Below, one piece after another: positions 5,527 to 29,514 of a DNA stretch of 33,403 nucleotides. The translations under genes were made by a program, and so were the position numbers. Each line of letters starts with the position of its first letter. Within the stretch, counting starts at the first letter, position 1. The DNA comes from Bacilli bacterium (GTDB lineage Bacteria; Bacillota_I; Bacilli_A; RF39; UBA660): the NCBI GenBank assembly GCA_007117695.1, contig SKFZ01000018.1:1-33403 (forward strand), written 5' to 3'. The notes beneath the pieces are model-generated. The model saw nothing but the letters and a program-made list of their open reading frames with translations, searched no databases and was not told the origin of the DNA.

Positions 5527-5556
5527 ATTATAACACTATTTATCTTTTTTAGTCAA
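5527..5556 (-). promoter_or_regulatory. Sigma-70-type promoter for T-box/proS
   Basis: TTGACT (5556-5551), 18-bp spacer, TATAAT (5532-5527). Confidence 0.8.
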
Positions 5557-7086
5557 ATCATTTTTTTCGATTGTTTCATAAAGTGTTGTAAATTCTTTTA
5601 ATTTTTCAAAATTTAAGTTTTCTAAATTGTTTAAATAATGATATTTTAAAATTTGATCAGTTTGATTAATAATTTTTTCTAAGTTATCAGGCTTTAGCAT
5701 TTCCATAGTAACATTCAAACCGTCTAATTTATACTTATCACTAACAATCATAGGAATATCATATTCCTCGAAAGCATTCAAGTTATTAACAAGATTATTA
5801 TACGGATTCATTAAAAATTTAATCAACTTTTCCACTTTATCATTAATTTCTTCATCAGTTATATTTTCAATTTCCTTTTTTAAAGATTTAACCATATAAA
5901 TATAATAAGATGAGGAGATTTTAAAAACATCATATATTTTTGAATCGGCCTTTATTCTATCATTAACTTTTTCTCTAAAAATCATATCATCTAATTCTTG
6001 ATACTTGATTTTTAATTCATCTATTATTTTACTATAATTAGATTCGCTTTTTTTGAATTTTGCTAAAAATCCGCTCTTTGTAAAAGAATTTTCAAGTTGC
6101 GACTCAAGTTTTTGAATCTCTTTTAATTTAGATTTACTGTTTTCTTTCTTTTCCTCACTTTTGTCAACTATCTCTTTTATGTTGTTAATAACAAACTTAA
6201 ACTCCAAATAATTTCTATACTCTTTTAATGTTCCATTCAACTTTAAAATAACGCTTGTATTTATGTAACTCGGCTGCTTCTCATAAGAAAAGTGACTATA
6301 AATTTTTAATATAGATTCTTTGTTATAATCAGCTAATTTAAATTTCTTATTTTTTAGTTCTTCTAATACATTATAATCACTTTTATTTGAAAGACTATCC
6401 ATCTCTTTTACTGTTTGTCTATATTCGCTTAAATAATCTTGTTTATTTGCATGCCCATTTTCAGTATATGCTTTCTGTTTTTTATCAATATAGCTTTCAA
6501 ATTGTTTTTCATGCTTATAATATAGTTTTCTAAAGTTAAGTTCAATGTCTAAAATTATATTGGGCCTTTTCCAATAAAGTTTTTCAAATGTTCTTTTCAA
6601 ATTAATAGATTCAATGTCAGAAATTTCTTCAAAGAAAACTTTCATATAACTATTTGCACACTCACTATAATCAAAATCATCTTTATCCAAAGTAACACCA
6701 ACATCTTTAAAAACATTAATTGCTTTTAAAATATCATTATTTACTTTAGATAAGTTACCTTTATAGTACTTGCTTATGCTATATATTATTTTATCAAGCC
6801 CGGTTTTTTCAAAAGGAGAATTAACACTGTTAAAGTACACCGATTCTGTTTCTAAATCTTTTAACTTGTCTTCTAACTTGTTTATTTCAGGATTTTTTTC
6901 AAAAGCATTAAAACTATCAAATCTATTTTTTATTTCGGCTAAAATTTTTGCTTTAAATTCATCATAGGTCTCATAAATTGAATTTGATTTTTCAATATAT
7001 TTGCTAACATTTTTTTCGTTATTTTTAGGAAGAGCAGATAAAATTTCTTTGTTAATTTCGATTTTCTCTTGTATGCTATTTCTCAT
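5536..7086 (-). CDS. Predicted cytoplasmic coiled-coil protein, unknown function
   Basis: 516-aa ORF, Lys/Glu-rich heptad-like sequence, no signal peptide; overlaps upstream small ORF. Confidence 0.8.
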   Translation of the reverse strand: MRNSIQEKIEINKEILSALPKNNEKNVSKYIEKSNSIYETYDEFKAKILAEIKNRFDSFNAFEKNPEINKLEDKLKDLETESVYFNSVNSPFEKTGLDKIIYSISKYYKGNLSKVNNDILKAINVFKDVGVTLDKDDFDYSECANSYMKVFFEEISDIESINLKRTFEKLYWKRPNIILDIELNFRKLYYKHEKQFESYIDKKQKAYTENGHANKQDYLSEYRQTVKEMDSLSNKSDYNVLEELKNKKFKLADYNKESILKIYSHFSYEKQPSYINTSVILKLNGTLKEYRNYLEFKFVINNIKEIVDKSEEKKENSKSKLKEIQKLESQLENSFTKSGFLAKFKKSESNYSKIIDELKIKYQELDDMIFREKVNDRIKADSKIYDVFKISSSYYIYMVKSLKKEIENITDEEINDKVEKLIKFLMNPYNNLVNNLNAFEEYDIPMIVSDKYKLDGLNVTMEMLKPDNLEKIINQTDQILKYHYLNNLENLNFEKLKEFTTLYETIEKNDLTKKDK

Positions 7087-7210
7087 TGCTGTCCAACAAC
7101 TTTCTAGCTTCTTCTTGCTCTTTTTTCAAATAACTTAAAAATTCATCTAAATCATTTAAAAGTTCTATTAGTTCTTTTGTTTTTGTATCAGTCAAATTAA
7201 TGTCATTCAT
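7076..7210 (-). CDS. Small 44-aa acidic helical protein (not in ORF track)
   Basis: MNDINLTDTKTKELIELLNDLDEFLSYLKKEQEEARKLLDSNEK; SD AGGGGAG overlaps stop of 7224 gene; 11-nt overlap with start of the 7086 gene. Confidence 0.7.
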   Translation of the reverse strand: MNDINLTDTKTKELIELLNDLDEFLSYLKKEQEEARKLLDSNEK

Positions 7211-7223
7211 TTTATCGTCTCCC

Positions 7224-10200
7224 CTATTTTATTATAACATATTTACTTACTTCGCCAATATAATTGTTACCATCATAAACTGAAAAAATAACTTTGTATG
7301 TTCCACTAACTAAGTTTTCTTCTAAATTTAAAGTGAAAGGTTGTGATGGTAGCGGATAAGTTCTAAATAAATATTCTTTTTTCTCGCTATCCATTAAAAT
7401 TAAGTTATTAATAATATAATCAGATAAGTCTACTAATTCAAATTCTGATGAGTAAACGTCTGTATATAACCTTCTTTTAAGCGATACTCTAATAGCTGGT
7501 TCTGCCAGACCTGATGAAAACTCTATATTGAAGTTTAACCTTTTTTCACCTAATGAATTTTGCCCTGTGTTTTTGTCGATTATAACATTATTATCAGGCA
7601 ATTCAACGTTTAGGCCGTAAATGTTGTTCAAAATATTTAAGTTTTGTTCACTTGTATCAGATGACTCTAACCCAAAATATATACCATCTGGTGATCCAAA
7701 CGAATCTACTACAATTGTATAATCGTCTGAGGGCAAATCAGAGTTTGTAGTATCAATTGTAATTCTCGAACTTACATTTGCAACTCTTGGTGCAATGTTC
7801 ATTCTAATTGTACCGTCCATTCTAGGATAATATGTTTTTCCTGAATGTACAAAATCAACACCCATCAAACTAGGTCCATCAACAGGGTTTCCATTACTAT
7901 CATATATTGATAGTTTAAGACCTAATCTGTTGTCATAATACTCTGTGTCATGTATTGTTCTTGAATTATGGCTTTGTTGAACAAAGTTTGTAGTCACATC
8001 TAAGTTTACAATGTCTCCCAAGTAAATATTTTCTTTATTCAATGTAGTATTCAATTCTATTACGGCGTTTTTATCGTGGAATAAATTATATGTCATATCT
8101 GAATGTTGAATACCTAAAACATTAACTAAAGTTTGCGATTCTTCATTCCGTAATTCTATTAATAAAGTGTTGTTCATTTTATCTTCTTCAATACTAGATA
8201 ATGAAAAGTCTAACATAAAGACAAACTCTTCATGGGCGAAATTTAATTCATCGTTATAATACTCATTGTTTTTTTCTTCATCATTATAATTATTAGAACC
8301 CGAAGTTGAACCCATCCTTATAAACCTCGAAAGTGGATAGGAGGCCTCCCCATACATTGCATATTCGCTTTGAGCCTCAGAAACATCTTGTGAACTAACA
8401 ACATAGTAATAGTATTCTGGAGTTTCTGGAGTCAAATCTATCATTGTTAGCTTTGTATTTTCTGGAAGAACAAAGGATGAAACCATTGCCCTATGGTCAC
8501 CTACTTCATAATATGGGTCTTCACTGCTAACGAATAATGAATAATACGCACTTAATGTTGAACTCGTTGTAATGTCGGTAGAAGTTGTAACAAACATATC
8601 ATGTTCTTCACCCGGCGTCATTGCACCTTCATATTGATCTGTAGTATATAGGATTCTAGATAAATCTAAATTGATGTTTATTCTTTCAACCTCATTAGTT
8701 AAATCATCAATTGGTGTTACCGCTAAAAGTGATAACGTAACTAGTCCCATATCACCATCGGTTTCTAAGTTTTTCGAATGATAAATGTAAAATAACAAAC
8801 TAGGAACTACAGAAGAGTTCTCACTTACGTAATCTACTGTCCCATATATAGGATTTTCTTCCTCTGTTAAAAAGTTAGTTTCACCTACAGTTAACCAACC
8901 TGTATTACTCGTTTTCATAACCAAACTCATAACTGAGTCAGCGTTTCCTTCCATATTAATACGGGGAACATCATTTTGTCTAATTAACTCTATTTCAGGA
9001 TCTAAATAATCATAATTTACACCAAGTAATGTAAATGTGGTATTAGGTTCTGAAAAATTAATTAGTGGTAATTCATGTGTTCCTAGTGTTGAATACTTTG
9101 ATGCAGTCAGTGTTACATCGTATGAAGATATTGCCTCACCAATTACCCACATATAGTAATTTGAATCTTCTGGAGTAGGTATAATGTAATCCATTTGAAT
9201 TACACCCTCGTTTTCCTCATCTTCATAACTTGTATAAAACCCATCTACATTTATATCATGATTTGTTTTATGTCTTCCAAGAACATATGAACCGTCAGCA
9301 AAGTGATAAAACTCTCCTATTCCAACAGTGTCACCATTCTCATAATCATGTGAATAAAAAGCCTCATTAACATTTCCTTCAAAGTCTCTAGTATACATAC
9401 CAAAGAAAGTCATTCCGTCCACTTCACCATAAGATGTTACTGCCTCATTAGTTGCTATATTTAAATTTCGACCAGACAACATATAAATTCTGTTATCCAC
9501 ATTTCTAGTTACTGTACCGTTTTCATCTATAGTAACTTCTGCTTTTACTTCTTCATCATTAACATCGACTAAACTTGAAACTTTTTCAAGTAAGTTAGCT
9601 CCCGTTTCTAAGTAAATGCTAGAATTGTTTTTTAATTTCAACTCTTTAACCCTACTTATACTAAACAGAACACTCGAATATTCATTAGTTCTATCTGTTG
9701 CACCAAATAATTCAATATAAGAATTATCAATTACAACTTCATCTGCTCTTTGAATAGATATATTTTGTTTATTATTATTAACAGAACCATAATTAGAGAT
9801 GTTAATTTCACTAAACCCTGTTGTAGAAGATGCATTACCACTACCGAATATTGAACCTAATATATCTAAAGAGTTTGGTGAATCGCCATCTATATTAATT
9901 GATATTCCGTTAGTAACACTAATAAATGAAAAGTCATACTCTTCAGACCCTTCGGCATTAGCTTCACCACCACCAAATACAGTTCCTTCAATCAATATTT
10001 CTGCTTCTTCTAATGTTTCTTCAAATATGCCAAAACCTATATTAATTTCGGTTGTTCCATAAAGTACTGATGTATTAGCACCGCCATATACATTACCTAA
10101 TATTGTAGCACCTGAAATATTTAAAGTTCCTTTAGAATTATTATATGTTTGGGTCCCTGTTGCAGCAGCATTCCCACCACCAAATACGTGTTCTTGAACA

Positions 10201-13200
10201 AAGGTTGAACCTTCAACATTAAGTGTGGTATCTCCTTCAACAATCGCAGTTTGACCATTACCACCAGCATACACGCTTGCTCCTATGTGGGCATCAACTA
10301 TTCTAACAATGGTGCTGTCACCTACAATAGCTTCATTTCCTCCACCATATACATATTCGTTAACAGTTGTTTCATTAATCAATAAGTTTGTGTCATTAGT
10401 AACTTCGGCTTGATTTCCTCCACCATATACGTTTTGAACTTCACCTAATCTCAACTCCACATTAGTTTCTCCGGTTTGGCCACCTAAATTGTTTCCACCA
10501 TATATATCACCTAATGTAACACTTGAACCATCTACTAATACATTTGACGATGATACAACTCCAGATTGGTTTGAGCCACCATATATAGTACCAATTGATC
10601 CACTAAATACATCTACATTTGTCTCACCAACACCGGCTTGGTTTCCTCCGCCGTATATATAATCAATGACTCCTGAACTTAGGTTTATGTCTATATTAGA
10701 CACTCCAGTATCAGCTTCATTTCCTCCGCCGTATATATTAGTATAATTACCGCTTAAAACTTCTATGTTCGTAGTTGTTGTTTGACCACCTAAATTATTT
10801 CCTCCATATACATTTGTTGAACTACCACTGCTTAATATAATATTTGATTCATGTATATTGCCATCTAAGTTTGATCCTCCATATATATTACTTAAACTAG
10901 GTCCATTTAAATTTATGTTAGTTGAAACTAAAACATCTGCTTCAGCTCCTCCACCATACACATTGTTTATACTACCACTGTTTAAGCTTATGTTTGTAAT
11001 GTCGACTTCGGCTAAATTACCACCACCATATATGGTGCTTGCACTACCACTGTTTAAGCTGATGTTAGTCTCACTAGTTTTCCCACCAGCATTATTTCCA
11101 CCATAAATGGTTTCAACACTACCATTATTAATAGTTATGTTGGCCTCTGGAATGTTACCACTTAAGTTTGACCCTCCATATATAGTAGTTACATCTGTAT
11201 CATTTAAAACTATATTTGATGCTTCCAACACATCTGCTTCGGCTCCACCACCAAATACAGTAGTAACTACTCCGGCATTTAAATTTATACTCGTATTATC
11301 AACTGTAGCTTGATTTCCACCACCATATATAGTACCAATGGTTGGACCTTCACCTTCCTCTGGTATTGGCATTTCACCTGTAAATGTTCCTTGAACACAA
11401 CGAATTGCAAAACCAAATGCTTGTGATAAAGTACTCCTATTTATATTTGCATTAGTATCATGCATATAACGTCCCCAAGCATCACTACCTGATTGCGAAG
11501 ACGTCCACCAAAGGGCAAAAGCATCAACACCAGTCGTAGCACCTGTAGTACTCTGATATCCAGTTGGCAGCGCTGAAAATCCATAATCATTAGTACCATT
11601 CCAGTTTTGATCATCCTTTATCATTGTTCCTTGACCGCTTCCACGATAACCAGTAGAATCAATATCTCCTTGAGACATACCTAACGCCGCCTCCAACTCT
11701 TTATAACCATCATCACTTGGTATGTACCAATCAACAGGACACAAACCTCTTGAATTTTCTCCTGATTGGCCATTCATTGCGGCCGCCCATTGGTATGTAA
11801 TTTGTGTTCCATAAGGTGTTGAATGACTTCTACATGCATTGTACGGAGCTCCAGTTGTCCAACTATTTGATAAACAGCCATTTCCAGTATAGTTTAAATT
11901 ACTAGCCATAAAACATTGATTATTTATTTGTGTTACCGGATATGTTGTACCATTTCTTTTATCTGTAATATGGGTAAACTCCATACCTTCAACTTCACAT
12001 GGCGTAGTATTATTTGGAAGATCTGGGGCAGACGGATTGTAAATGTATGCAATATTTTCATCTTCTGGTAAAGATGCTTCTCCTGAAACTGCGGTAGTCT
12101 CAATATTAGTTTCGTTAGTTTTTCCACCTATATTGTTTCCACCATATACATTATCAGCAGTCCCTTCGACTAAAGTAATATTAGAAACTGGGATATCCCC
12201 ACTTAAATTTGATCCTCCATATATGTTTGTTATTGATCCACCATTTAGAATTACATTAGAAGAAACCATTACGCTTGCCTCAGCTCCTCCACCATATACA
12301 TTCGTAGCACTTCCACTAGTTAAATTAATGTTAGTAGTATCAACATCAGCTTGATTTCCGCCTCCAAAAATATTTTGAATCGTTGCACCTTCAAGGGCAA
12401 TATTTGTAGTTGATGTTTTCCCACCTATATTATTTCCACCATACACATTATCAGAGGTTCCACTTATTAAATATATATTTGATGAAGGCACGTCACCACT
12501 AAGGTTTGAACCACCATGTATACTATTAACAGTTGAACCATCCAAGTATATATTAGTTGCTGATGATCCAACTTGATTTCCTCCACCATATACATTATCA
12601 ACTATTCCATTGTTTAAATGTATTGTTGGACCACCTAATACTTCACCAGATAAATCATTTGCACCAAATACAGAAGACATCTCTCCACCATTTATAGTTA
12701 AATAAGTACGTCCTGCAACATATGGATGATGTGAAGCATCTCCTTTTGCACCACCATATATAGAACCACTTATTTGTCCATTATTAATATTTACATTAAT
12801 TATGTCAGAAGAAAATGAAGGGCTATTTGATGTTGAATTAACAGTACCATAAGCACTTCCACCATACACATCTCCTAATATTTCAGGACCCGTACTTTCG
12901 TTTCCGACATTTACTTCAATATTGTTTCTAACATATGTTCCTTGATTAGATGAGTCAACATAACCACCACGGCCACCGCCGTATACTGATTCTTCAATCA
13001 ACCCACTAATAACATCAATATTTACATCACCGTATATGGTACCTGAAACATTACTACCACCATATACTGAGCCTGATACACTTCCACCATTAAGCACCAT
13101 ATTGATCGTAGCATCAACTGAAGTATTACCAGCCCCGTTATTATTTCCACCACCATATATAGAACCTAAAACACTACCATTTAAGACTGTTATATTCGAA

Positions 13201-15569
13201 TTAGTAGTTGACGATGTTGATGAAATCCCCGTTGCACCAAAGTTTCCACCACCATATACATTGTTATTAACAACTGCATTTCCATCTATTATTATATTAG
13301 AGTTTACCATTGATCCAATCGATGAAAAACCTGAACGGCCATTCCCAATGCCAAAAACAGACCCTGCTTCAGCTCCGTAAATAGTACTGGATGAAGATAC
13401 TAAATTAGGATCTCCAACAACTCCATAACCACCTAAATATATGAAAGAATCTCCAATAACAGTACCATCAGACCCTGAACCTTCAACACCGTTACTTCCT
13501 CCAAATATTGCATAATTTATTTGACCACCTGTAACTTGAATAATTCTATGTCCGTAAGTAGCACTTCTTCCAGCACCACCTGTAATAGCATCTATTTCTC
13601 CACCTACAACATTAATATATGAATCATTAAGATTCCCTCTATTAGATGCAGTTAAGGGACCGCCTATAAGGTTGTAAATCCAACCACCCTCTACTTTTAC
13701 TCTTCGAGCAGCATAGTGTGTTCCACCTCGTCGACCACCTACATATATCCCGGTTGTATAGTCAAATTGACTACTACCATAACTACCGCTTTTTACTACA
13801 AGATCAAATATTATTCCAGTATTTGATGAGGCATATACATTACCTCCCCAACTTCCAGAAGCACAATAATTCAAATCAAGATTATCATTATTATTAGTAA
13901 CTTTATCATAATCATTACCATATATAGCTCTAGCTTCTAAGTGATTAGTAGCAGTTCCTCCGCCATTACCTATAGAAAATGTACTATAATTACCAGATTC
14001 TATAATTAATCTATATTTTGTTATATTCCCTGAACTACCAGTAGCATTGTTATTGCCACCTAAAACGGTCTGGAAAGTCGCGTTGTTTCCGCTTTGAATT
14101 CCTCTTCCAAGTCTAACATTTTGCCAATTTCCATAAAATGTTCTAATCGTACCTGTTCCAGTTGGTGGATCAGAGTTGTTTTGTGACTGACTAGTAAGCG
14201 CATTGATATTCTCAATATTAGTATCATTAAAAGCTCTAACAACTACATTTGTTGACCAAGTTGCATTATGGTTAGTTCCGTTATGAATGCCTGTTAGGGT
14301 AAACGGTTTATCTTCACTTGAACTCCACGCATCACTTCTATTTCCTGTCATTACAATTATATTTGTGTCTCTTGTAGATAAATAATAATAATCTTCTTCT
14401 CTATCTAGTGTTTCAAGTTCGTCTTCATCATTCCTATAACCTATCAGTTCGTACCTATCACAACCCCCTGCACTATTACAAGTCCCTGATGATAAATATT
14501 CACCATCTTCAGTATAAAAGCCTGCTAAGGAACCCGAGTTAGGAATTGTAACAATTCTAAAAAGACCAGTCATCAAAGAATCATCATTATAATCGTTAAA
14601 AAATGCTTCTTCTGTTTCAAAAGGTAACCCTGAGGGGTCTACCACTTGCATTGAACCATTTAATTCATAATAAGTAATATTTTCATCATAGTATTCACTT
14701 TCAACAAGCTCATAATATGTACAACCTCCCCAATCACGACAACGACAGTTACCTGTTTGAAGATTACCATTTGCGTCATACATGCCATTACATTGACCGT
14801 TCCATCCTAAAATAGTTTGAGTAAAGTACCCTGTCATATCCAACGGCAAATGTTCAATAGAGTAAGTTTCTAGATATTGCATACCATAATCAGCTAGATC
14901 ATTGAATGCGGAAGCCCAACCGTTTCCACCATTAACTTCAGAAATTCTAGCCGCAACCCATGAAGCATTAAACTCTATTTCAACTTTTTCTGCAACATCT
15001 CCATCATAAGATACTGGGACTCTTGCAGATCTTATATAATAATCTTTATCAAAAGTAAATTCTACGTTGTTATTCTCAGTTGTCCAACCATTAAATCCTT
15101 TATCTTCAGGACGGTTTGTAAATGGGTTTTCTATTAATTCGATTTCTACGTAATCACCATTTGGACCACTTTGTATAGGTAGTATTTTATAATATATAAA
15201 AGTATCTTGGAGTTCCGTTAAAGAAACATAGCCTACTTCTCCAAAGTTGAGGTCCTCTGAACTATAAACGATTTCAACTTCTACTAATTGATCATCTGTA
15301 TAAAGGTTTTGATTTTCTCCAGAAGGTAAAGTACCAGTAGAGCTTTCTGTATAATTTAAACCTTTATAGTAATAATAGTTCGCATCTAAATCGTTTATAT
15401 GAACAACGTTTTCAACAACACCACTTAATTTATCGTTGTCATAGTTCAAAAAGTTTTGTGGGTCTTGCCCAAACGTTATTACAAAGGTAATAGCTGTGAA
15501 CAAAAACACAAAAAACAAAAACGATATTGAAATTATTCTTTTATAATTTTTTTGTAAGTTTTTTTTCAA
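7224..15569 (-). CDS. Giant secreted repeat protein: beta-solenoid-like YGGG repeats with inserted FISUMP-like domain
   Basis: 2781 aa, hydrophobic N-terminus (ISISFLFFVFLFTAITFVITF); >30 [IV][YF]GG repeats; TTG start with SD AAGGAGG; no LPXTG or C-terminal TM. Confidence 0.9.
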   Translation of the reverse strand: MKKNLQKNYKRIISISFLFFVFLFTAITFVITFGQDPQNFLNYDNDKLSGVVENVVHINDLDANYYYYKGLNYTESSTGTLPSGENQNLYTDDQLVEVEIVYSSEDLNFGEVGYVSLTELQDTFIYYKILPIQSGPNGDYVEIELIENPFTNRPEDKGFNGWTTENNNVEFTFDKDYYIRSARVPVSYDGDVAEKVEIEFNASWVAARISEVNGGNGWASAFNDLADYGMQYLETYSIEHLPLDMTGYFTQTILGWNGQCNGMYDANGNLQTGNCRCRDWGGCTYYELVESEYYDENITYYELNGSMQVVDPSGLPFETEEAFFNDYNDDSLMTGLFRIVTIPNSGSLAGFYTEDGEYLSSGTCNSAGGCDRYELIGYRNDEDELETLDREEDYYYLSTRDTNIIVMTGNRSDAWSSSEDKPFTLTGIHNGTNHNATWSTNVVVRAFNDTNIENINALTSQSQNNSDPPTGTGTIRTFYGNWQNVRLGRGIQSGNNATFQTVLGGNNNATGSSGNITKYRLIIESGNYSTFSIGNGGGTATNHLEARAIYGNDYDKVTNNNDNLDLNYCASGSWGGNVYASSNTGIIFDLVVKSGSYGSSQFDYTTGIYVGGRRGGTHYAARRVKVEGGWIYNLIGGPLTASNRGNLNDSYINVVGGEIDAITGGAGRSATYGHRIIQVTGGQINYAIFGGSNGVEGSGSDGTVIGDSFIYLGGYGVVGDPNLVSSSSTIYGAEAGSVFGIGNGRSGFSSIGSMVNSNIIIDGNAVVNNNVYGGGNFGATGISSTSSTTNSNITVLNGSVLGSIYGGGNNNGAGNTSVDATINMVLNGGSVSGSVYGGSNVSGTIYGDVNIDVISGLIEESVYGGGRGGYVDSSNQGTYVRNNIEVNVGNESTGPEILGDVYGGSAYGTVNSTSNSPSFSSDIINVNINNGQISGSIYGGAKGDASHHPYVAGRTYLTINGGEMSSVFGANDLSGEVLGGPTIHLNNGIVDNVYGGGNQVGSSATNIYLDGSTVNSIHGGSNLSGDVPSSNIYLISGTSDNVYGGNNIGGKTSTTNIALEGATIQNIFGGGNQADVDTTNINLTSGSATNVYGGGAEASVMVSSNVILNGGSITNIYGGSNLSGDIPVSNITLVEGTADNVYGGNNIGGKTNETNIETTAVSGEASLPEDENIAYIYNPSAPDLPNNTTPCEVEGMEFTHITDKRNGTTYPVTQINNQCFMASNLNYTGNGCLSNSWTTGAPYNACRSHSTPYGTQITYQWAAAMNGQSGENSRGLCPVDWYIPSDDGYKELEAALGMSQGDIDSTGYRGSGQGTMIKDDQNWNGTNDYGFSALPTGYQSTTGATTGVDAFALWWTSSQSGSDAWGRYMHDTNANINRSTLSQAFGFAIRCVQGTFTGEMPIPEEGEGPTIGTIYGGGNQATVDNTSINLNAGVVTTVFGGGAEADVLEASNIVLNDTDVTTIYGGSNLSGNIPEANITINNGSVETIYGGNNAGGKTSETNISLNSGSASTIYGGGNLAEVDITNISLNSGSINNVYGGGAEADVLVSTNINLNGPSLSNIYGGSNLDGNIHESNIILSSGSSTNVYGGNNLGGQTTTTNIEVLSGNYTNIYGGGNEADTGVSNIDINLSSGVIDYIYGGGNQAGVGETNVDVFSGSIGTIYGGSNQSGVVSSSNVLVDGSSVTLGDIYGGNNLGGQTGETNVELRLGEVQNVYGGGNQAEVTNDTNLLINETTVNEYVYGGGNEAIVGDSTIVRIVDAHIGASVYAGGNGQTAIVEGDTTLNVEGSTFVQEHVFGGGNAAATGTQTYNNSKGTLNISGATILGNVYGGANTSVLYGTTEINIGFGIFEETLEEAEILIEGTVFGGGEANAEGSEEYDFSFISVTNGISINIDGDSPNSLDILGSIFGSGNASSTTGFSEINISNYGSVNNNKQNISIQRADEVVIDNSYIELFGATDRTNEYSSVLFSISRVKELKLKNNSSIYLETGANLLEKVSSLVDVNDEEVKAEVTIDENGTVTRNVDNRIYMLSGRNLNIATNEAVTSYGEVDGMTFFGMYTRDFEGNVNEAFYSHDYENGDTVGIGEFYHFADGSYVLGRHKTNHDINVDGFYTSYEDEENEGVIQMDYIIPTPEDSNYYMWVIGEAISSYDVTLTASKYSTLGTHELPLINFSEPNTTFTLLGVNYDYLDPEIELIRQNDVPRINMEGNADSVMSLVMKTSNTGWLTVGETNFLTEEENPIYGTVDYVSENSSVVPSLLFYIYHSKNLETDGDMGLVTLSLLAVTPIDDLTNEVERININLDLSRILYTTDQYEGAMTPGEEHDMFVTTSTDITTSSTLSAYYSLFVSSEDPYYEVGDHRAMVSSFVLPENTKLTMIDLTPETPEYYYYVVSSQDVSEAQSEYAMYGEASYPLSRFIRMGSTSGSNNYNDEEKNNEYYNDELNFAHEEFVFMLDFSLSSIEEDKMNNTLLIELRNEESQTLVNVLGIQHSDMTYNLFHDKNAVIELNTTLNKENIYLGDIVNLDVTTNFVQQSHNSRTIHDTEYYDNRLGLKLSIYDSNGNPVDGPSLMGVDFVHSGKTYYPRMDGTIRMNIAPRVANVSSRITIDTTNSDLPSDDYTIVVDSFGSPDGIYFGLESSDTSEQNLNILNNIYGLNVELPDNNVIIDKNTGQNSLGEKRLNFNIEFSSGLAEPAIRVSLKRRLYTDVYSSEFELVDLSDYIINNLILMDSEKKEYLFRTYPLPSQPFTLNLEENLVSGTYKVIFSVYDGNNYIGEVSKYVIIK
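9820..13520 (-). repeat. In-frame [IV]YGG(G/S/N) coil repeat array, ~25 aa per coil, 99-aa (297-nt) four-coil super-repeat
   Basis: Coil order GGGNQA - GGGAEA - GGSNLSG - GGNNxGG recurs; same GGSNLSG position at 10869, 11166, 12207, 12504 (297-nt steps apart from the insertion). Confidence 0.9.
11386..12000 (-). other. FISUMP-like domain (Fibrobacter succinogenes major paralogous domain type) inside the solenoid
   Basis: Translated GTTYPVTQINNQCFMASNLNY...GLCPVDWYIPSDDGYKELEAAL...FSALPTGYQ...ALWWTSSQS...FAIRCVQ. Confidence 0.8.
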
Positions 15570-15581
15570 GCTACTACCTCC

Positions 15582-17280: not shown

Positions 17281-17317
17281 ATTATAACTCTCCTTTCTCA
17301 TATAATCCTATTACTTA

Positions 17318-17436: not shown

Positions 17437-17465
17437 TTGAAGCAAACAATCTATTCCTATATAAT
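17437..17465 (+). promoter_or_regulatory. Promoter for plus-strand gene 17491
   Basis: TTGAAG (17437-17442), 17-bp spacer, TATAAT (17460-17465); shows the track start at 17437 is too early. Confidence 0.75.
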
Positions 17466-20394: not shown

Positions 20395-21924
20395 TTAAAC
20401 ATTTTTCTTGAGTCTTAATAAATACTCAATTGACTCTTTCATCTGGTTTTCTCCAAAAGTTTCATTTAAAAACTCAATATATCCATCAACTTCATCTCTG
20501 ATGTATGAAATATTTAATTGCTCAAATTTTCTAAGTATCTTTCTTGCAACAAAATAATCAACACCATCAATTTCTTTCCCACCGCATGCTACATAGACTG
20601 GGACAAATTTTCTAAGATGTGCAACAATACGGTTACCAAAGGCAATCCTAAAATGTTTAATTACATAATCATCCATTATTTCTAATTTATCTAAAGTTTC
20701 TTGCGATACTGCATACTTCTCAACAGCTTCACCAAATAACTTTTCAACATAAGAAAAATTAATATCCTGTGCTTCTATGTCTTTCGCCTCAAAAACTTGA
20801 CCTTTTTCGTTAATATCAATCGGCATAGCACGGTCATAAACTTTATCAGTAACCATAAATGTTGAATCATCATTATTGATTGTTCCGATATACCAAACAT
20901 TAGGTGCAATTTTTAATTTACCATTTTTTATATACTTAGGATCTGTATCCCACTCACTTGAAACAAGTTCAACAATCCATTCATCTTTATCTGGCATCTC
21001 AAGTATCGATAACATCTCAGCGAAATAATATTCAACTCTGGAAATGTTCATCTCATCAAGTATTACTGTGTATATTTCATCTGTGTATCCTGCTTTATAA
21101 ATTTCTTTAAGCACGTCAGTCTCATTAAACTTCTTAGTAAATTCGTTAAAATAACCAAAAAGCTCGGTTCTATCACGCCAAGATGGCTGAACTGATGCAA
21201 TACACGAATCATTTTTCAAAAATTTTCCCCATGCATATGCTAAGGAAGTTTTACCAGTACCAGAAATACCTTGTAATATAATCATTCTTGTTGAAGAAAG
21301 CGCTGCTATAAATAGTCTAATCATATCTTCACGATAATAAAGGCCTAATTGCGATGCTGCAAAATTTCTAAACATATCCACTAATTCTGGCAACGTGAAA
21401 TCATTCCCAAAATTTTCTTTGGTATAATTAGCATATTGTTGATCAAGAACATGAAGTTTAGAAAATCTATGATCATCACTTAAATCTTCAACTTCTTCCC
21501 CGTCTTCATCAAGATTATCAACATTCACTTTTTCACCCGGCTTTAACCCTAATTGGGAAACCTTCATAGAAAGTATATTTTCTTTTTCTTTCATCAACTT
21601 AACAACTTCAGAATTAAGTTTAGTAACTTCTTCTAACAATTCTTCTTGCTCAACTAAACTTGCCCTAAATCTAATATATTTTCTTATCAGAAAATATACT
21701 AGTAGCCCTATTAAAATTGCTAATATTAGAAAAACAGCAATAGTTAAACCAACAAAAATCCACTCTGTACCAGTGAAGTCTTGTTTATAGTAATCTATAA
21801 CACTTCTATATGAAGCAATATCAAAAATTTTGACGATACCTTCGCCAATCGAGCGGATTATAAAAAAAACACCGCTGAAAAACACTGCTAAAAAATCATA
21901 TAAAAATCTTAAAAATGCTTGCAT
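20395..21924 (-). CDS. Membrane-anchored McrB-like AAA+ ATPase
   Basis: Two N-terminal TM segments; Walker A GISGTGKTS, SVQPSWRDRTELFGYFN, Walker B VILDEMNISRVEYYFAEML, VWYIGTINNDDS, DRA. Confidence 0.85.
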   Translation of the reverse strand: MQAFLRFLYDFLAVFFSGVFFIIRSIGEGIVKIFDIASYRSVIDYYKQDFTGTEWIFVGLTIAVFLILAILIGLLVYFLIRKYIRFRASLVEQEELLEEVTKLNSEVVKLMKEKENILSMKVSQLGLKPGEKVNVDNLDEDGEEVEDLSDDHRFSKLHVLDQQYANYTKENFGNDFTLPELVDMFRNFAASQLGLYYREDMIRLFIAALSSTRMIILQGISGTGKTSLAYAWGKFLKNDSCIASVQPSWRDRTELFGYFNEFTKKFNETDVLKEIYKAGYTDEIYTVILDEMNISRVEYYFAEMLSILEMPDKDEWIVELVSSEWDTDPKYIKNGKLKIAPNVWYIGTINNDDSTFMVTDKVYDRAMPIDINEKGQVFEAKDIEAQDINFSYVEKLFGEAVEKYAVSQETLDKLEIMDDYVIKHFRIAFGNRIVAHLRKFVPVYVACGGKEIDGVDYFVARKILRKFEQLNISYIRDEVDGYIEFLNETFGENQMKESIEYLLRLKKNV

Positions 21925-21945: not shown

Positions 21946-22929
21946 CTATCTTAAAACAACAACGTTTTTTCTGTCTTTAATTTTCGGGTAATAAATAGAT
22001 TGTGAACTAACCAAAATAAATCTAAAAACGTTTAAAAGTTCTATATTCACATCAGACATCGTAAATGCCTCATCTATTATAACCGCATACTTGTAACCTA
22101 ATCTCATATTTGTGTAATAACTTTCACGATCTTTAATAAATTCTGAAAATTTTATTTTTAAAATAACCTTTTCTTTACAAATGTCATTACTAATAATACC
22201 TAATATTTCACTTTGCTTAACTTTTTTATTATTTAATCCAATAGAGTAATTAACTAAGTACTTTTTCTTGAATTCTCCTTTTATAACGTCTAGCAACACC
22301 CTTGATGAAACTAAATTGTACTCTACTAAATGACTGTCTTCTTTTATATCTTTTGATGTAAAAACTTTATTTATAGCACTATCATTATATAATTTAGGGA
22401 ACTTTAGGTTATGGTTTAGTTGAGTATTATAAAGTCCATCATTATTAACCAAATAAAATTCAATGCTGAAATTTTTACAAATTGTAGAGTCAATAAATGT
22501 TTTTTTCTTTAATAAGTCTTCTTTTACCATTTCAAATATTTTATCTTTAAATTTTTTGCTTTTGATAATACCTAACTCTTTTTCTCTAAAATCTTCAAGC
22601 TGATTAATAACTAATTGAACCGAATCACATTCCTTAACGGCGTCAAAATACAGTAAAAATTTAAACATAGAAAATGTCTTTTTTAAAATATCAAAATTTT
22701 CACATTCTTCTTTCATTTCCTCAAACTTGTTGACCATTGTTAACCCAATATTGTTTTGAAAATCTTCATACTCTTTCAATCCAATATTATAATATCTGAT
22801 ATCTACATAAGTTTTTAAAAGCTGATCAAAAATATCTTGATTAAAATGTTTCGCCATAATAGTAACGGCGTATTTATTTAAGCAGCTTTTTGAAAAAATT
22901 ATATATTCATCCACCAAATTATGTTTCAT
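21946..22929 (-). CDS. Conserved-looking unknown protein, first gene of AAA+/SipW operon
   Basis: ORF with SD GGGGGA before ATG 22929; no recognised domain; 21-nt gap to AAA+ gene. Confidence 0.7.
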   Translation of the reverse strand: MKHNLVDEYIIFSKSCLNKYAVTIMAKHFNQDIFDQLLKTYVDIRYYNIGLKEYEDFQNNIGLTMVNKFEEMKEECENFDILKKTFSMFKFLLYFDAVKECDSVQLVINQLEDFREKELGIIKSKKFKDKIFEMVKEDLLKKKTFIDSTICKNFSIEFYLVNNDGLYNTQLNHNLKFPKLYNDSAINKVFTSKDIKEDSHLVEYNLVSSRVLLDVIKGEFKKKYLVNYSIGLNNKKVKQSEILGIISNDICKEKVILKIKFSEFIKDRESYYTNMRLGYKYAVIIDEAFTMSDVNIELLNVFRFILVSSQSIYYPKIKDRKNVVVLR

Positions 22930-23054
22930 ATGATCCCCCTTATATTCTTGACAATTTATACTTTTATACAAATAAGTTTTAATGTTTAAAGTGTTTTTTT
23001 ATTTTTTTTTCCAAACGTAAAATCACTTTATTTCACTCATATCTTTACTTTATA

Positions 23055-23159: not shown

Positions 23160-24776
23160 TTAATCAAGCCATTTTCCACTAATATATTGTTCTAACTGAT
23201 TACGTTCCTCAGTTGACAGAACTGAGTTATATACTATATTTTCTGCAACATCACCAGTAAAATAAGGATAATTAGCTAAATTATTACGTGAACTACCAAT
23301 ATAATAATTTTCTCCTTGATTTCCAGAGGTGCCAACAGGCAAAGTCACACTAGAACCACCATTTAAGTAGCCTCTCGCCACGCTTCCATCCCATGTGACT
23401 AATATGTGATGCCATGTACCTTGAGGAATATTTGAACCAACGGTTTGCAAAGCCCCATTAGTGTTTCCTCTTAATCGTACTCGAACATCATTGTTTTGCA
23501 TGTAAATAGCAAAAGTTGTTGCTCCTCCAATACCACCTGCTGCTCCGGCGATAATACCATCCTCTCCGGTATGTCTAAACACAAGTGATAAGCTCCAAAA
23601 ATTGCTGGAAACCGCATGAAAATTATTAACCTCAGTATTCAAAGAAGTTTCGAAATAATCTTCATTAAATCGAACAAATGGTTTATCCTCCATTTTATAT
23701 GTTGGAACTCTTCCGCCTATTGTTTGAAACGCATCATTTTCATGAGATGATAAATCTGGCCAATCATTAATTGGGTCTCCATCACTTAAACCCGAAATAG
23801 CATAACTATCTAAATGAAGAACCATTCCACTTGTCGGTACAGTTGGTTCAGTAACTTGATCATTTAAAGAATATGTTACTTCAACTATTGAATCTTCATT
23901 AACAAATGGATAAGTATGATCATTTTGATCATCAACTTTATAAAATTTAGTTCTAACACTTGAAATTGCATCTATTTTAAACGAAATAAAGTTAATGTAT
24001 TCATGACCATCTATTGTCTCGGTTTCTATTCTTAAAGACTCAATATAAATATCACTAGTCATATTTAATCTAAGTACGTTTGGATCGAAACTAAACTCAA
24101 CAATAGAAGATGCACACTTTTGTTTATTTTCTTCACTTAAACCTAAATAAGTTTGGATGTCTATAGTATCATATATATCATAACTTTCAAACGGTTCTAA
24201 AACAGTATAGTAATCTAAAGTATTAGTAACACTTAACTCTAAATAAGGATCACCAACTCCATCATCTATTCTATGTGACAATCCATAATGGCCCACTTGC
24301 AAAACAAATTCTGCACTAAGTTCTTTTTCATACGGTGAAGTTGACTTAACCGCCACTTCAATAGAAATAGTATCTTGATCCTGCAAAGTAACATTTGGAG
24401 CAACGGTCGCAATAAAATAATCAGTGCTATTAGAGCTATAAATAGTACCCTCTGATTTACTAACACTACAATTTGCATTTGATGAACATGAGTATGTTAC
24501 ATCATAATCCACGTCAGTTGTTGTTTTTAACATATTATTATCTAATGTATTTAAATTAATAATAATATCATAGGAGTCAACACCATTGTAATCGTTAATT
24601 TGATAATGGGCATGACTTTCGGTTAACTTATCACTTTGGAAAAAGAAGTTTTGTGTCACAAAGAAACTATCTCTGATCTCCACATATACAAATCTACCTA
24701 ATGTCGAAATAACAACAATACTTATTAAAATCAAAAAAATTAATACTGTGTTCATTTTTTTTATTTTTTCAATCAT
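23160..24776 (-). CDS. Membrane-anchored/secreted protein with C-terminal LamG/ConA-like lectin domain
   Basis: N-terminal TM; GMVLHLDSYAISGLSDGDPINDWPDLSSHENDAFQ...QGTWHHILVTWDGS...YFTGDVAENIVYNSVLSTEERNQLEQYISGKWL. Confidence 0.8.
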   Translation of the reverse strand: MIEKIKKMNTVLIFLILISIVVISTLGRFVYVEIRDSFFVTQNFFFQSDKLTESHAHYQINDYNGVDSYDIIINLNTLDNNMLKTTTDVDYDVTYSCSSNANCSVSKSEGTIYSSNSTDYFIATVAPNVTLQDQDTISIEVAVKSTSPYEKELSAEFVLQVGHYGLSHRIDDGVGDPYLELSVTNTLDYYTVLEPFESYDIYDTIDIQTYLGLSEENKQKCASSIVEFSFDPNVLRLNMTSDIYIESLRIETETIDGHEYINFISFKIDAISSVRTKFYKVDDQNDHTYPFVNEDSIVEVTYSLNDQVTEPTVPTSGMVLHLDSYAISGLSDGDPINDWPDLSSHENDAFQTIGGRVPTYKMEDKPFVRFNEDYFETSLNTEVNNFHAVSSNFWSLSLVFRHTGEDGIIAGAAGGIGGATTFAIYMQNNDVRVRLRGNTNGALQTVGSNIPQGTWHHILVTWDGSVARGYLNGGSSVTLPVGTSGNQGENYYIGSSRNNLANYPYFTGDVAENIVYNSVLSTEERNQLEQYISGKWLD

Positions 24777-25281
24777 CTGATTTCACCTCTTTTTTGAATG
24801 AAATCTTTGTCTTTTTAACAATATATAACCAAAACACGAAAAGTGGTAATACTAAAAATGTGAAATATACCGGCCCACTTGTAAGTATTCTAATACAATT
24901 TCCAATTTTAGTTATTTCTCTTACATCATCTGAGTTCGCTATCACGTAACTACTAGATAAATATTTATTATTATCAAGAAAATACGTTGTTTCATTTTTG
25001 CTCACTTCTATAACTTCTAAAACTTTTGCATGCAAAATTTCATTAGAAGCATTATAGCTATTAAAAAACAAAATGTAATCACTAACTTCTATATTTTTTT
25101 TATTTATATCCGCAATTATTAGAGAATGGTTTTCATAAGGATGGTTTTCATTTGCTACAAAAACAACCTTATTCCCAAAATTTGATACACCAAATCCGAC
25201 AAAAGTTAAAAAATATGCCACTAGCATACTAACTAAAACTATATAAGTAATGATGATAGAAATCCACCTTTTTTTTATCAT
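24769..25281 (-). CDS. Signal peptidase I-like membrane protein lacking recognisable catalytic motifs
   Basis: TM-beta domain-TM layout with VSDYILFFNSYN, ILHAKVLEVIEV, TYFLDNNKYLSSSYVIAN aligning to SipW landmarks, but no SMxP or THRV. Confidence 0.6.
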   Translation of the reverse strand: MIKKRWISIIITYIVLVSMLVAYFLTFVGFGVSNFGNKVVFVANENHPYENHSLIIADINKKNIEVSDYILFFNSYNASNEILHAKVLEVIEVSKNETTYFLDNNKYLSSSYVIANSDDVREITKIGNCIRILTSGPVYFTFLVLPLFVFWLYIVKKTKISFKKEVKSDD

Positions 25282-25388: not shown

Positions 25389-26375
25389 TTAAGCTGGATC
25401 TATAGTTAATTGAATATCAAATATTGCATTACCGCCTGAAGCAGTATTTTCAGTATCTATATCTTGTCCTTCAATCCATAAGTAAAGTCTCATCTTAGTA
25501 ATTCCTTCGCTTAAGTTGAAAACAGGTACATAATCTGAGAAATCTTCTTCAGTTAAATAATCAGGCGTTACATCTGTGAAAAACTGTGAATAATTAGCTT
25601 CAGTTGCATCTCCAACTAAAACATCATCTTCTGTAGTTATTTCTGAATGTACACCAGAGTATGGCACTGCACTAACACCATCAACTGTAAGTCCATATGT
25701 GTTACTTGCATGAGCTATAGCTGCTGCTGTATGAGAATTATAGTTAGGTTCCCAAATGTATACACTAGCGCCTTCACCTGCATTCAATGATTGAATGTCA
25801 TTTGTTGAGCTACCTATAGCAGTTGTTCCTAAATTAACAAATGCTACACGAGTTGCATTTTTTATACCTGTATCAGTTGCATCTGGTGTAGAAACTCCTG
25901 AATTAGGTGTTAAATACAATTGTTCTGGTGCACTACCATCTAATCTAAAGAATAAATCAAATGCAATGAATCTACCATTTGGATTATTTCTTGTTTCTTC
26001 AAATTGTGTTGTAGTTAAAATGTAGTTACCACCAGTATTTGTTTCAACTACACCATAAAACATTTCCATACGGCCTTCTTCGTTCATATTACCAATTGTA
26101 GAAACAGGTTCTAAAACTTCTGGTATTTGATTAACACTCGATTCATATGTGTCAGCAATGTCTCTTAGTTCTTCAACATCAATAATTGACCTCCAGCTAA
26201 TACCGTCGGCTGACACTTGAATACCACCTTGTGCCTCTACGTTAACTTGAATAGAACTAATAGATACTGTTCTATTCGCAGTAAACCATGCATAAGTTGC
26301 AGTCGATAAGAATACAGCTGTCGAGAACAACATTGTAAGTAACAACAAGACCCTTCTTTTTTGTTTTGTTTTCAT
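25389..26375 (-). CDS. TasA/camelysin-like secreted protein with SipW-cognate signal and WIEGQDID motif; candidate major subunit
   Basis: MKTKQKRRVLLLLTMLFSTAVFLSTATYAWFTANRT; KMRLYLWIEGQDIDTENTASGG; SD GGAGG before ATG 26375; paralog of 15582..16583. Confidence 0.8.
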   Translation of the reverse strand: MKTKQKRRVLLLLTMLFSTAVFLSTATYAWFTANRTVSISSIQVNVEAQGGIQVSADGISWRSIIDVEELRDIADTYESSVNQIPEVLEPVSTIGNMNEEGRMEMFYGVVETNTGGNYILTTTQFEETRNNPNGRFIAFDLFFRLDGSAPEQLYLTPNSGVSTPDATDTGIKNATRVAFVNLGTTAIGSSTNDIQSLNAGEGASVYIWEPNYNSHTAAAIAHASNTYGLTVDGVSAVPYSGVHSEITTEDDVLVGDATEANYSQFFTDVTPDYLTEEDFSDYVPVFNLSEGITKMRLYLWIEGQDIDTENTASGGNAIFDIQLTIDPA

Positions 26376-26420
26376 ATTTCCTCCTTCCACAACAATATGG
26401 TCTTCCATATCATTGACTTA

Positions 26421-26538: not shown

Positions 26539-27822
26539 TTACCACCCTAACCATTTTTCGCCTAAATAATTTTCTACTATTTTCCGTTCACCTTCCAAAA
26601 GTGATGTTTCATATATGATTATTTCAGCAATATCACCGACCCAGTTTCTAGCAGTTGTGTCAGCTTGTCTACCTATTCCAACAGAAGAATCTTGAGTAGC
26701 TAAACTACTATAATTAACACTTGATGCTTGTTCTATTCCATCAACAAACATATTCATAGTACTACCATCACCACTTACCGTTATCATAGTTGGTTCTGTC
26801 GAAGCATCTGAATCACTTTCAACCGTGCTAGTGCCCATGCTGCTTTGTCTAAACGCCCATTTATTATCCCATTGGACTAACCACCAATTTCTATTAGTGT
26901 GGCCACTTTCCTTGGAAGTTATAGTTCTAATGCTGCCAGTCCCAGTCGTTCTAGACTCTAAGTTTACTACTGCAAAAATGGTTATTTCGGGGTTAATTCT
27001 AAGTGAATCATCATCCAAAATAGACAAATCACTACCTCCATCATAGCGAACTACTGGAAGTCCGTTCATCTGGTTTGTTCGATAAACGGGTCTTTCACTT
27101 GGTGTGGACTGCATTGCATCATTACCTTTACCTGATAAATCACTCCATATTGAAACATAGTCTTGATCAGACAATCCAGAAATCGATGAAGCATCTAAGT
27201 GGAGAACTCTACCTTCTGTAACAGTTAATTTTGAATCCATAACTTGTCTTGAATCAATAGTTATCTCAATACTTTCAATCATATTTTGATAACTGTATGA
27301 TATATATTCTAAAGGAAAATATATTACTAATGTATATTCATTTGTTTCATCATAAAAATAATTAAAATATTCAGTAGGCGTTTCAAACATTCTAAAATAA
27401 GTCCCATGTTCATCTTGTTCCACTACTTCTGTTGCGATCGGGGTTGCTTCAGGCGACTCGTAATCTTCATTCATATAAAGTTCATAAACTAATGGCAAAT
27501 TAGTTGTAGACTTGATTGTTAAATCATACTCCATCACAGTCTCCAGCTTTCTTTCGCCATCATTATTAGAAATCGAGAAATTAAAAACATATGGTGAATT
27601 TGATGGAACTAAATCATGAAGTCTAACGTTATCATGTGTATAACTAGTATCTAAAACATAGTATGCAACAGGAGATTGAACTTCTGATGCAGTGAAAGTC
27701 TCATATCTTGAGTATGTGTATGGAAACATGAAAAGTAGTATTAACAACGAAATAAACAATAGAAAAACTTTGAAAAAGCTAACTTTTATACTAGCGGTCA
27801 AGATTATCACCACATTCCTCAA
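26539..27822 (-). CDS. Secreted LamG/ConA-like lectin-domain protein with matrix-type N-terminus
   Basis: FLLFISLLILLFMFPYTYSRYETF; GRVLHLDASSISGLSDQDYVSIWSDLSGKGNDAMQ...WVGDIAEIIIYETSLLEGERKIVENYLGEKWLGW. Start codon uncertain (TTG/GTG candidates). Confidence 0.78.
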   Translation of the reverse strand: MRNVVIILTASIKVSFFKVFLLFISLLILLFMFPYTYSRYETFTASEVQSPVAYYVLDTSYTHDNVRLHDLVPSNSPYVFNFSISNNDGERKLETVMEYDLTIKSTTNLPLVYELYMNEDYESPEATPIATEVVEQDEHGTYFRMFETPTEYFNYFYDETNEYTLVIYFPLEYISYSYQNMIESIEITIDSRQVMDSKLTVTEGRVLHLDASSISGLSDQDYVSIWSDLSGKGNDAMQSTPSERPVYRTNQMNGLPVVRYDGGSDLSILDDDSLRINPEITIFAVVNLESRTTGTGSIRTITSKESGHTNRNWWLVQWDNKWAFRQSSMGTSTVESDSDASTEPTMITVSGDGSTMNMFVDGIEQASSVNYSSLATQDSSVGIGRQADTTARNWVGDIAEIIIYETSLLEGERKIVENYLGEKWLGW

Positions 27823-28378
27823 TTAAGTTTTCTCTAGAAATTCTAAAATCTTTGCATTTTTTATTAAATTTAACATGCGCTATATTTTCAGGGTTTTTAG
27901 CAAGCAAAAGGTTCAAAATCCCCACAGTTACTACAATTGAAATCAATACCGGCGGGGACATTAAAACTTGTCTCCAAACACCTAATCCAGATGCTACAAA
28001 AACTACTTTTCCCACTACGTTTTCTTTTTCTATTGGTACATCTTTAGAGTTATTTGCGTCACCACGAGTTATATATTGGTCTCTTGACTCCTCAACAACT
28101 CTATGTGTTACAAATGCCTCTTCAGATTTATACGTAATAACATCATCTATTTTTATATCCGAGTCTATTTTGACAAAAATTATATCTTTTTTTTCTATTG
28201 TAGGGGCCATACTGTTACTAACTACCTCAAATACAGAATAACCAAATAAATTTACATAATCCTTATTTTGAACTCTAAGTTGAAAAAAATTGTATGCAAC
28301 TAAAAAAAAAGTTATCGTAATAATAACAATAAGAAAAATTTCTAAGAACAAAAGACTTTTATTTAAGACTTTCTTCAT
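27791..28378 (-). CDS. SipW-type signal peptidase I
   Basis: VVSNSMAPTIEKKDIIFV (Ser), AFVTHRVVEE (His), ITRGDANNSKDVPI (Asp), VVGKVVF, C-terminal TM. Confidence 0.9.
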   Translation of the reverse strand: MKKVLNKSLLFLEIFLIVIITITFFLVAYNFFQLRVQNKDYVNLFGYSVFEVVSNSMAPTIEKKDIIFVKIDSDIKIDDVITYKSEEAFVTHRVVEESRDQYITRGDANNSKDVPIEKENVVGKVVFVASGLGVWRQVLMSPPVLISIVVTVGILNLLLAKNPENIAHVKFNKKCKDFRISRENLIEECGDNLDR

Positions 28379-28401
28379 TATTACCAACCTCTTTTTATTC
28401 T

Positions 28402-28977
28402 TTAATCAACAAGTTGCGACACTCTAACGCTAACAGGAATATTAATTTCAGGTTCATTTTCTAAAATATACTCCGAATCAATATCATTATTAGCTTCATC
28501 ATGAATCCAAACTAAATTTACCCTGATCGTTTCAAATTTATCATCAAGTACATCTTCAACAGATATATCACCTAAAAAAGTATAATCTTCTATCTCTGCT
28601 AAATTTTGGTCATCACTATTAACAACTGATTCCAATTGAATCATATCATTAGTAATATCACCAAAATCAAAAAACAGCTCATATTCTATACCTACTTGAG
28701 TGCCGGCTGGATTAATGATAATCTCAAAGTAGCCTGCAAGGCCGGGAGCAGCCCTCCCTGGTAAAACATTATGGTCTTCTTCCCAATTAATATTATCAAT
28801 AACAAAATTTTCTTCACCGTTTGATACGTCTGTTCCATTTATCATAATTTGCCAGTCTGCAAGTTCCATTTCTACAGGAACTTCAACATCCGTTTCAAAA
28901 ACTGCATATGTCCCCACAATATACATAAATAAAACGACCAAAACAAAAAAAGCAAAAAAAGGTGTAGACCTATTCAT
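28402..28977 (-). CDS. TasA-like small secreted protein, SipW-cognate type
   Basis: FFAFFVLVVLFMYIVGTYAVFETDVEVP; paralog of 17491..18081; adjacent to SipW. Confidence 0.8.
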   Translation of the reverse strand: MNRSTPFFAFFVLVVLFMYIVGTYAVFETDVEVPVEMELADWQIMINGTDVSNGEENFVIDNINWEEDHNVLPGRAAPGLAGYFEIIINPAGTQVGIEYELFFDFGDITNDMIQLESVVNSDDQNLAEIEDYTFLGDISVEDVLDDKFETIRVNLVWIHDEANNDIDSEYILENEPEINIPVSVRVSQLVD

Positions 28978-28987
28978 TGTTTAAAAC

Positions 28988-29494
28988 CTACGCTTCTTTT
29001 TTTAATTCTTTAATCAATAAGTAAATTTGATAAACTAGTAACATCAAAACAGGAAATATAATTAGAAATAAAAATCCCCATCTCGAGCTCATAAAGCTTA
29101 CCACACTTCCCATATTAGACATTGCAATCGCAGTATCATTTTTCCCAATAACATATTGGCTGGAAATCGAATGATTATTATTTAATGTATAAGTTGCTTC
29201 AGTTTCAGTAATTTCTTCAGCTTTATTAACCTTACCATAACTAACAATCTCTTCTTCGGAACTTGTGTTATAAAAGAAAATCTCATCGCCAACTTCTATT
29301 TCAGAATTTGGATTTCTCTCTACTATTACTAAGTCTCCTTTTTCATGTTCCGCAATTTTTTCGTCAATAATTAAAAATGAGTACTTACCAATTTGTGAAA
29401 CACTATAATTATTTAGGTTAAACAAATATACAGTAAGCGATAGTGCCACTAAAATAAATAGTGAAACTAATGTTGTAAAAACTATTTTTTTCAT
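28988..29494 (-). CDS. Signal peptidase I-like protein lacking recognisable catalytic motifs
   Basis: TM-beta-TM; KGDLVIVERNPNSEIEVGDEIFFYNTSS, SYGKVNKAEE, YTLNNNHSISSQYVIGK parallel SipW landmarks; no SMxP or THRV. SD AGGTGAT before ATG 29494. Confidence 0.65.
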   Translation of the reverse strand: MKKIVFTTLVSLFILVALSLTVYLFNLNNYSVSQIGKYSFLIIDEKIAEHEKGDLVIVERNPNSEIEVGDEIFFYNTSSEEEIVSYGKVNKAEEITETEATYTLNNNHSISSQYVIGKNDTAIAMSNMGSVVSFMSSRWGFLFLIIFPVLMLLVYQIYLLIKELKKEA

Positions 29495-29514
29495 ATCCTT
29501 TATCACCTAAAATT

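Follow-up and report, generated by a model that had tools for sequence, protein, structure and literature searches.

A SipW- and TasA-like gene cluster around a membrane McrB-like AAA+/DUF2357 pair: a candidate system for surface-fibre assembly

The window, a stretch of 33,403 nucleotides, makes up an entire contig in the assembly (548 kb, 81% complete) of a gut-type relative of the wall-less mycoplasmas. Between proS and a membrane-protein gene it contains a block of approximately 24 kb (positions 5536-29506) with 17 genes, many of which overlap or lie a few bases apart (largest gap at most 188 bases). A preliminary description of the locus gave these coordinates correctly and assigned the entire cluster to the minus strand, which is accurate for 16 of the 17 genes; the exception, T1 (17437-18081), reads from the plus strand. 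A gene for a lipoteichoic-acid-synthase-like sulfatase is located at 1862-3817, between glmS and proS, near the end of the cluster. In order of position, the 17 genes are:

CC, 5536-7086, minus: predicted cytosolic coiled-coil protein of 516 aa, no transmembrane (TM) segment.
SOL, 7224-15569, minus: repeat surface protein of 2781 aa (predicted beta-solenoid) with an N-terminal TM segment and a FISUMP domain (PF09603, TIGR02145).
W1, 15582-16583, minus: exported WIEG protein, SipW-type site SSYAWF.
W2, 16570-17301, minus: WIEG protein, probably anchored in the membrane, that lacks a SipW site; predicted structure TasA-fibre-like.
T1, 17437-18081, plus: small exported protein, STFAKY site; homologous to T3.
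T2, 18078-18680, minus: small exported beta-sandwich protein, NSFAWF site.
SipW1, 18689-19255, minus: catalytic SipW-type signal peptidase, S-H-I-D (TIGR02228, 5e-22).
DUF2357, 19209-20369, minus: McrC N-terminal-like protein without a recognisable nuclease domain (PF09823, 3e-10).
AAA+, 20395-21924, minus: membrane-anchored McrB-like NTPase, coiled-coil-like stretch after the TM segment, NNDD motif.
U341, 21946-22971, minus: cytosolic protein, no TM segment; fused to SipW2 in six relatives.
LamG1, 23160-24776, minus: conserved membrane/secreted N-domain and lineage-specific LamG domain (PF13385, 1.4e-12).
dSip1, 24769-25281, minus: SipW-like pseudo-peptidase, Ser and His absent.
W3, 25389-26408, minus: exported WIEG protein, ATYAWF site.
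LamG2, 26539-27822, minus: exported N-domain (TYSRY site) and lineage-specific LamG domain (PF13385, 2.4e-10).
SipW2, 27791-28387, minus: catalytic SipW-type signal peptidase, S-H-D-D (TIGR02228, 8.8e-23).
T3, 28402-28977, minus: small exported TasA/CalY-like protein, GTYAVF site.
dSip2, 28988-29506, minus: SipW-like pseudo-peptidase (TIGR02228, 2.5e-4), Ser and His absent.

Profile searches and inspection of catalytic residues thus bore out the two SipW-like peptidases, two degenerate SipW paralogs, two LamG proteins, and membrane AAA+/DUF2357-like pair of the preliminary description. The two catalytic peptidases are of the ER-type Ser-His-Asp kind; their scores of 72.5 and 54.8 bits were both below the equivalog cut-off of 190 for Bacillus SipW. 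Of 86 SipW orthologues located after DUF2357, 84 retained the Ser, the His, and the second Asp, and of 34 located after T3, 33 retained all four residues (SHDD). The position of the pseudo-SipW that precedes T3 was kept in about 44 loci, in nearly all of which Ser and His were lost. Because the dSip proteins are degenerate yet conserved in position, they are probably functional non-enzymes. A second strong TIGR02228 SipW was found outside the cluster in the source genome (G000, contig C9, about 15261-15620, 397-aa frame).

Three types of gene fusion involved the catalytic peptidases: SipW2 with U341 in six loci (L115, L116, L125, L127, L135, and L136), SipW2 with the LamG2 N-domain in four (L064, L068, L069, and L078), and SipW1 with T2 in two (L085 and L122). 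Fused genes usually function together, and these fusions tie the peptidase to its presumed substrates and, via U341, to a gene adjacent to that of the AAA+ protein.

SipW-cognate-like N-termini were analysed with a strict export motif, [TSAIVGN][YFL][AS]x[FY], placed after a TM segment. This motif occurred in 63 of 73 T1, 67 of 71 T2, 29 of 43 T3, 73 of 84 W1/W3, and 39 of 54 LamG2 N-domain sequences, against a background of 43 of 239 in other TM proteins of the same loci. The earlier proposal of such N-termini therefore stands, above background, for at least six proteins. It does not extend to W2, whose family showed the motif in only 4 of 52 members. No window protein was among the matches listed for the NCBIfam SipW-cognate signal model (TIGR04088), which matched one relative weakly.

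Sequence comparison identified SipW1/SipW2, dSip1/dSip2 (26% identity, 1e-15), W1/W3 (36% identity, 7e-75), and T1/T3 as true paralogue pairs. "Two SipW/TasA-like modules" is a fair description of the cluster. An ancestral duplication of LamG, which had also been suggested, was ruled out by homologues in relatives of ~300 aa (LamG1 N-domain, 71 loci) and ~200 aa, which leave no space for a LamG domain; the two LamG tails are a late, lineage-specific addition. T1 was on the opposite strand in 63 of 77 T1 genes, and in most relatives it is kept there between T2 and W2. This conservation hints at separate control of subunit T1. The giant protein SOL contained about 30 YGG-type motifs; its FISUMP (Fibrobacter succinogenes major) domain, which the preliminary description did not mention, is at residues 1214-1393 (PF09603, 2.8e-24; TIGR02145, 1.6e-27) and lies inside the repeat region. 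A Pfam scan of diverse U341, LamG1 N-domain, and CC members gave no credible match, Pfam and NCBIfam-type scans of window proteins gave no family match for CC, and family scans of the cluster proteins gave no match to a sortase.

Structure prediction and profile comparison were applied to the putative TasA-like subunits. The predicted structure of W2 (pLDDT 90.3), searched against 350,542 PDB chains, gave a TasA fibre (8aur_A) as its top match and as its only match below 1e-3 (E 9e-5, probability 1.00). Since TM was only 0.29-0.30 and rmsd 9.2, this similarity is local or topological, not a clean superposition. For T2, predicted with confidence as a beta-sandwich (pLDDT 88.6), no PDB match below 1e-3 was obtained and TasA was not in the best 50 listed. 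Mature-domain profiles of T3 and T2 matched a TasA/CalY-type profile at HH 84% over 145 columns and 83% over 75 columns, respectively; that profile was built from PF12389 hits and neighbouring motif-bearing ORFs and does not represent a pure TasA family. The small subunits also matched each other (T1-T3 100%, T2-T3 93%, HH probability). W2 showed no sequence-level match to the TasA/CalY-type profile (0.3%), and U341, the one unrelated family used as control, scored at most 0.3% with every profile. A profile search for Peptidase_M73 (PF12389) found none in the source genome; in one relative (G098), a sub-threshold PF12389 match (E 7.4e-4) occurred in the same cluster as the AAA+ gene. Sequence profiles of T2, W2, and the DUF2357 protein yielded nothing useful against the PDB. 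TasA-like folds, as anticipated in the preliminary description, are thus supported but not proven, with the W2 top match and the T3 and T2 profiles in their favour and the low TM and the lack of a significant PDB match for T2 against them.

The AAA+ protein matched the McrB model in profile searches (8e-6) and McrB structures (1.5e-6). Hydropathy indicated hydrophobic segments at residues 5-23 and 62-80, followed by a heptad-like stretch at ~90-125, in whose best register 58% of the a/d positions are hydrophobic. Its invariant N350-N351-D352-D353 contains an NxD motif but, from the ungapped alignment to the NTAD of McrB, also reads as NxxD, and is thus compatible with either the NxD or the NxxD clade. 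No Pfam match to a modified-DNA-binding domain was found on this protein, whose N-terminus consists of the TM and coil segments. For the DUF2357 protein, Pfam returned DUF2357 only and no PD-(D/E)xK nuclease, and there was no conserved acidic/Lys motif after residue 248. It is short in the window's family, with no evident coil in the window's own copy, whereas other families have long, coil-rich versions with Lys/Glu-rich C-terminal extensions. A single in-frame TGA is present within the AAA+ frame of one relative (G304:C72:4440-5960).

The McrB/McrC ancestry of this pair raises the question whether it serves in defence or conflict at the membrane, as a derivative of type IV restriction that watches the envelope with the surface proteins as sensors or bait and with a response set off by the ring. 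The AAA+ protein also matched a PADLOC defence candidate (PDC-M26A, 2.7e-35), and Bell et al. (2024; PMC11090510) place CoCoPALM, in the passages that concern it, among CoCoNuT-like relatives of type IV restriction. However, neither a nuclease nor a HEPN domain was found among the cluster proteins scanned, the DUF2357 protein included, and such a role does not fit a cluster of this length and conserved order that includes export machinery and fusions of SipW. A DUF2357 protein without recognisable nuclease and the lack of an effector argue against simple restriction. Because no effector was found, defence is ranked below assembly, and we regard it as unlikely.

Conservation of the cluster was surveyed in 101 loci that were chosen on the AAA+ gene alone (80 named loci, 20 regions from whole-genome sets, and the window). 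In 97 of 100 loci the gene that immediately follows AAA+ was DUF2357, and a SipW relative was nearby in 96 of 101. Other partners were U341 (77 of 101 loci, in most cases as the gene before AAA+), T2 (74), the LamG1 N-domain (71), T1 (67), W proteins (61), SOL (51), and CC (20); these counts are lower bounds, since many contigs end within the cluster. The relatives, labelled as Mollicutes, Tenericutes, Erysipelotrichaceae, Bacilli, or Clostridia metagenome-assembled genomes (MAGs), represented about ten families of the class, and in families other than the window's the core W2-W-SipW-AAA+-DUF2357-SipW recurred. A weak AAA match in G015 was judged from its genes to be unrelated.

Across the class, the AAA+ gene occurred in 141 of 394 genomes. 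A TIGR02228 peptidase was present in 135 of these 141 and in 148 of the 253 genomes without AAA+ (Fisher 1.6e-17, a value that ignores ancestry, and SipW is often present anyway). This wide occurrence of SipW without AAA+ would be expected if a fibre operon and a restriction-like operon were unrelated neighbours that adjoin in one genome. That explanation, however, is refuted by the order conserved in 101 loci across families, as well as by the gene fusions, and is extremely improbable. The AAA+/DUF2357 unit does not adjoin SipW genes by chance: contrary to the refuting outcome named in the preliminary description, it is kept beside SipW in relatives, near-invariantly in the 101 loci and also in other families and in Acholeplasma laidlawii.

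Some copies of AAA+/DUF2357 occurred without SipW and adjoined giant surface proteins. In two MAG loci (L129 and L131), a SOL homologue of ~2765 aa and a T1-type protein came after AAA+ and DUF2357, and the stretch covered contained no SipW; in L179 a SipW-less copy lay beside a protein with nine cadherin-like repeats. The constant partner of AAA+/DUF2357 seems to be a surface protein. Rings without SipW at surface-protein loci, the cytosolic location of the AAA+ domain, the fusion of U341 to SipW2 in some genomes, and the conserved pseudo-peptidases, which suggest regulation of SipW, would all be compatible with a quality-control or regulatory ATPase in a MoxR/RavA-like role, which extracts, unfolds, or degrades SipW substrates that have failed, or controls SipW activity, outside fibre building itself. 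Family scans of the window revealed no protease or VWA partner, and the near-invariant association is strong for a mere quality-control factor. We consider this role rather unlikely.

One carrier genome outside the window's family was taken as that of A. laidlawii. It contained two AAA+/DUF2357 loci; SipW accompanied one of them, a giant cadherin-like protein the other. The SipW locus was adjoined by two GGDEF-EAL (c-di-GMP) genes and by a gene for a secreted carbohydrate-binding-module (CBM) protein. GGDEF-EAL relatives were found in 13 of ~21 loci outside the window's family, compared to 1 of ~80 inside it. As A. laidlawii is a cultured model organism, the function of the cluster is directly testable.

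Comparison with described systems indicated that the cluster is probably a representative of CoCoPALM, a kind that has so far received very little description (Bell et al., 2024; eLife RP94800, PMC11090510), so that the earlier designation as a new system was overstated. The CoCoPALM passages of that paper describe McrB-like GTPases with an FtsB-like TM segment and coiled coil beside signal peptidases, an NxD motif with D or E as the usual next residue, and a McrC homologue that also has a coiled coil; a link to pilus assembly is predicted there in a few sentences and the rest deferred. The cluster shares the McrB-like GTPase, here with an N-terminal TM segment and a coiled-coil-like stretch, the DUF2357 partner, and the signal-peptidase neighbours, whereas TasA-like substrates, WIEG proteins, pseudo-peptidases, SipW fusions, and a c-di-GMP link do not form part of these passages (PMC11090510). 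The literature collection searched contained no detailed follow-up on CoCoPALM, and no paper that mentions both SipW and DUF2357 or both SipW and Acholeplasma. The present analysis adds to CoCoPALM the secreted subunits, pseudo-peptidases, fusions, c-di-GMP link, and testable host.

The tapA-sipW-tasA operon of Bacillus subtilis (PMC9674648) resembles the cluster in its SipW-type peptidase, GTYAxF-like export sites, and TasA-like subunits, but has no AAA+/DUF2357, pseudo-peptidases, or giant repeat protein, in agreement with the preliminary statement that the AAA+ components are not found in the Bacillus system. In sipW-bsaABCRSD of Clostridium perfringens (PMC7395162), a SipW-dependent subunit likewise forms extracellular filaments without sortase; regulation is by a two-component system and an AAA+ partner is not mentioned. 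Escherichia coli McrBC shares the AAA+ core with P-loop, Walker B, and sensor Asn, as well as the DUF2357 partner, but in the cluster a membrane anchor takes the place of the DNA-binding domain, no nuclease is recognisable, and the neighbourhood is one of export. The cluster further differs from sortase-assembled pili in the lack of a sortase match.

Taken together, we consider it somewhat probable that this is a dedicated cluster of the CoCoPALM kind for export and assembly of surface fibres (matrix or adhesin), in which the ring acts as follows. SipW1 and SipW2 would cleave small TasA-like subunits (T1-T3, W1, W3, and LamG N-domains) exported through Sec. Beyond the membrane these subunits would then form polymers, to which the giant repeat protein and LamG or CBM domains would contribute adhesion. 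W2 and the two SipW pseudo-peptidases would remain membrane-bound and serve as anchors, nucleators, or chaperones. At the cytosolic side of the membrane, NTP hydrolysis by an oligomeric AAA+ ring, tethered through its N-terminal TM segment and coiled coil and activated by the nuclease-less McrC-like partner, would drive or gate export and assembly, and U341 may link the ring to the peptidase. Polymerisation, topology, and the role of the ring are what we infer in this scheme. It is favoured because of the DUF2357/SipW association, the fusions, the motif enrichment, the TasA-type matches, and the c-di-GMP genes, and because SipW-less copies of the ring adjoin surface proteins; the pilus link of Bell et al. 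and the BsaA filaments point the same way. Against fibre assembly stand the low TM to TasA, the absence of a fold match for T2 and of a profile match for W2, the PDC-M26A match, the missing family assignments of U341, CC, and the LamG1 N-domain, and the lack of a nearby SipW in L129 and L131. Moreover, TasA fibres (PMC9674648) and BsaA filaments (PMC7395162) are products of SipW-dependent subunits without a known AAA+ partner, so that fibres of this kind do not require a motor as such.

A wider proposal, which we put forward tentatively, is a new class of surface-filament machines in which a nuclease-stripped, membrane-bound, McrBC-derived ring, acting from the cytosol, powers or gates the export and assembly of SipW-processed TasA-like fibres, under c-di-GMP control in some lineages including the wall-less Acholeplasma. 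If correct, protein export or assembly would have taken over motors of the McrBC type from DNA restriction, and wall-less mollicutes would acquire a defined, c-di-GMP-linked surface filament. TasA-type fibres, currently viewed as self-assembling with the help of small chaperones, would gain an NTP-driven partner across a wide range of Bacilli from gut and environment. A third type of AAA+/DUF2357 locus was observed in L182 and L146 (genomes G202 and G083, respectively). In it, a single DUF2357 gene was flanked by two or three AAA+ genes, and two big surface proteins came next, with a transglutaminase core and MBG in L182, which lacked SipW and where the first AAA+ copy was poorly matched.
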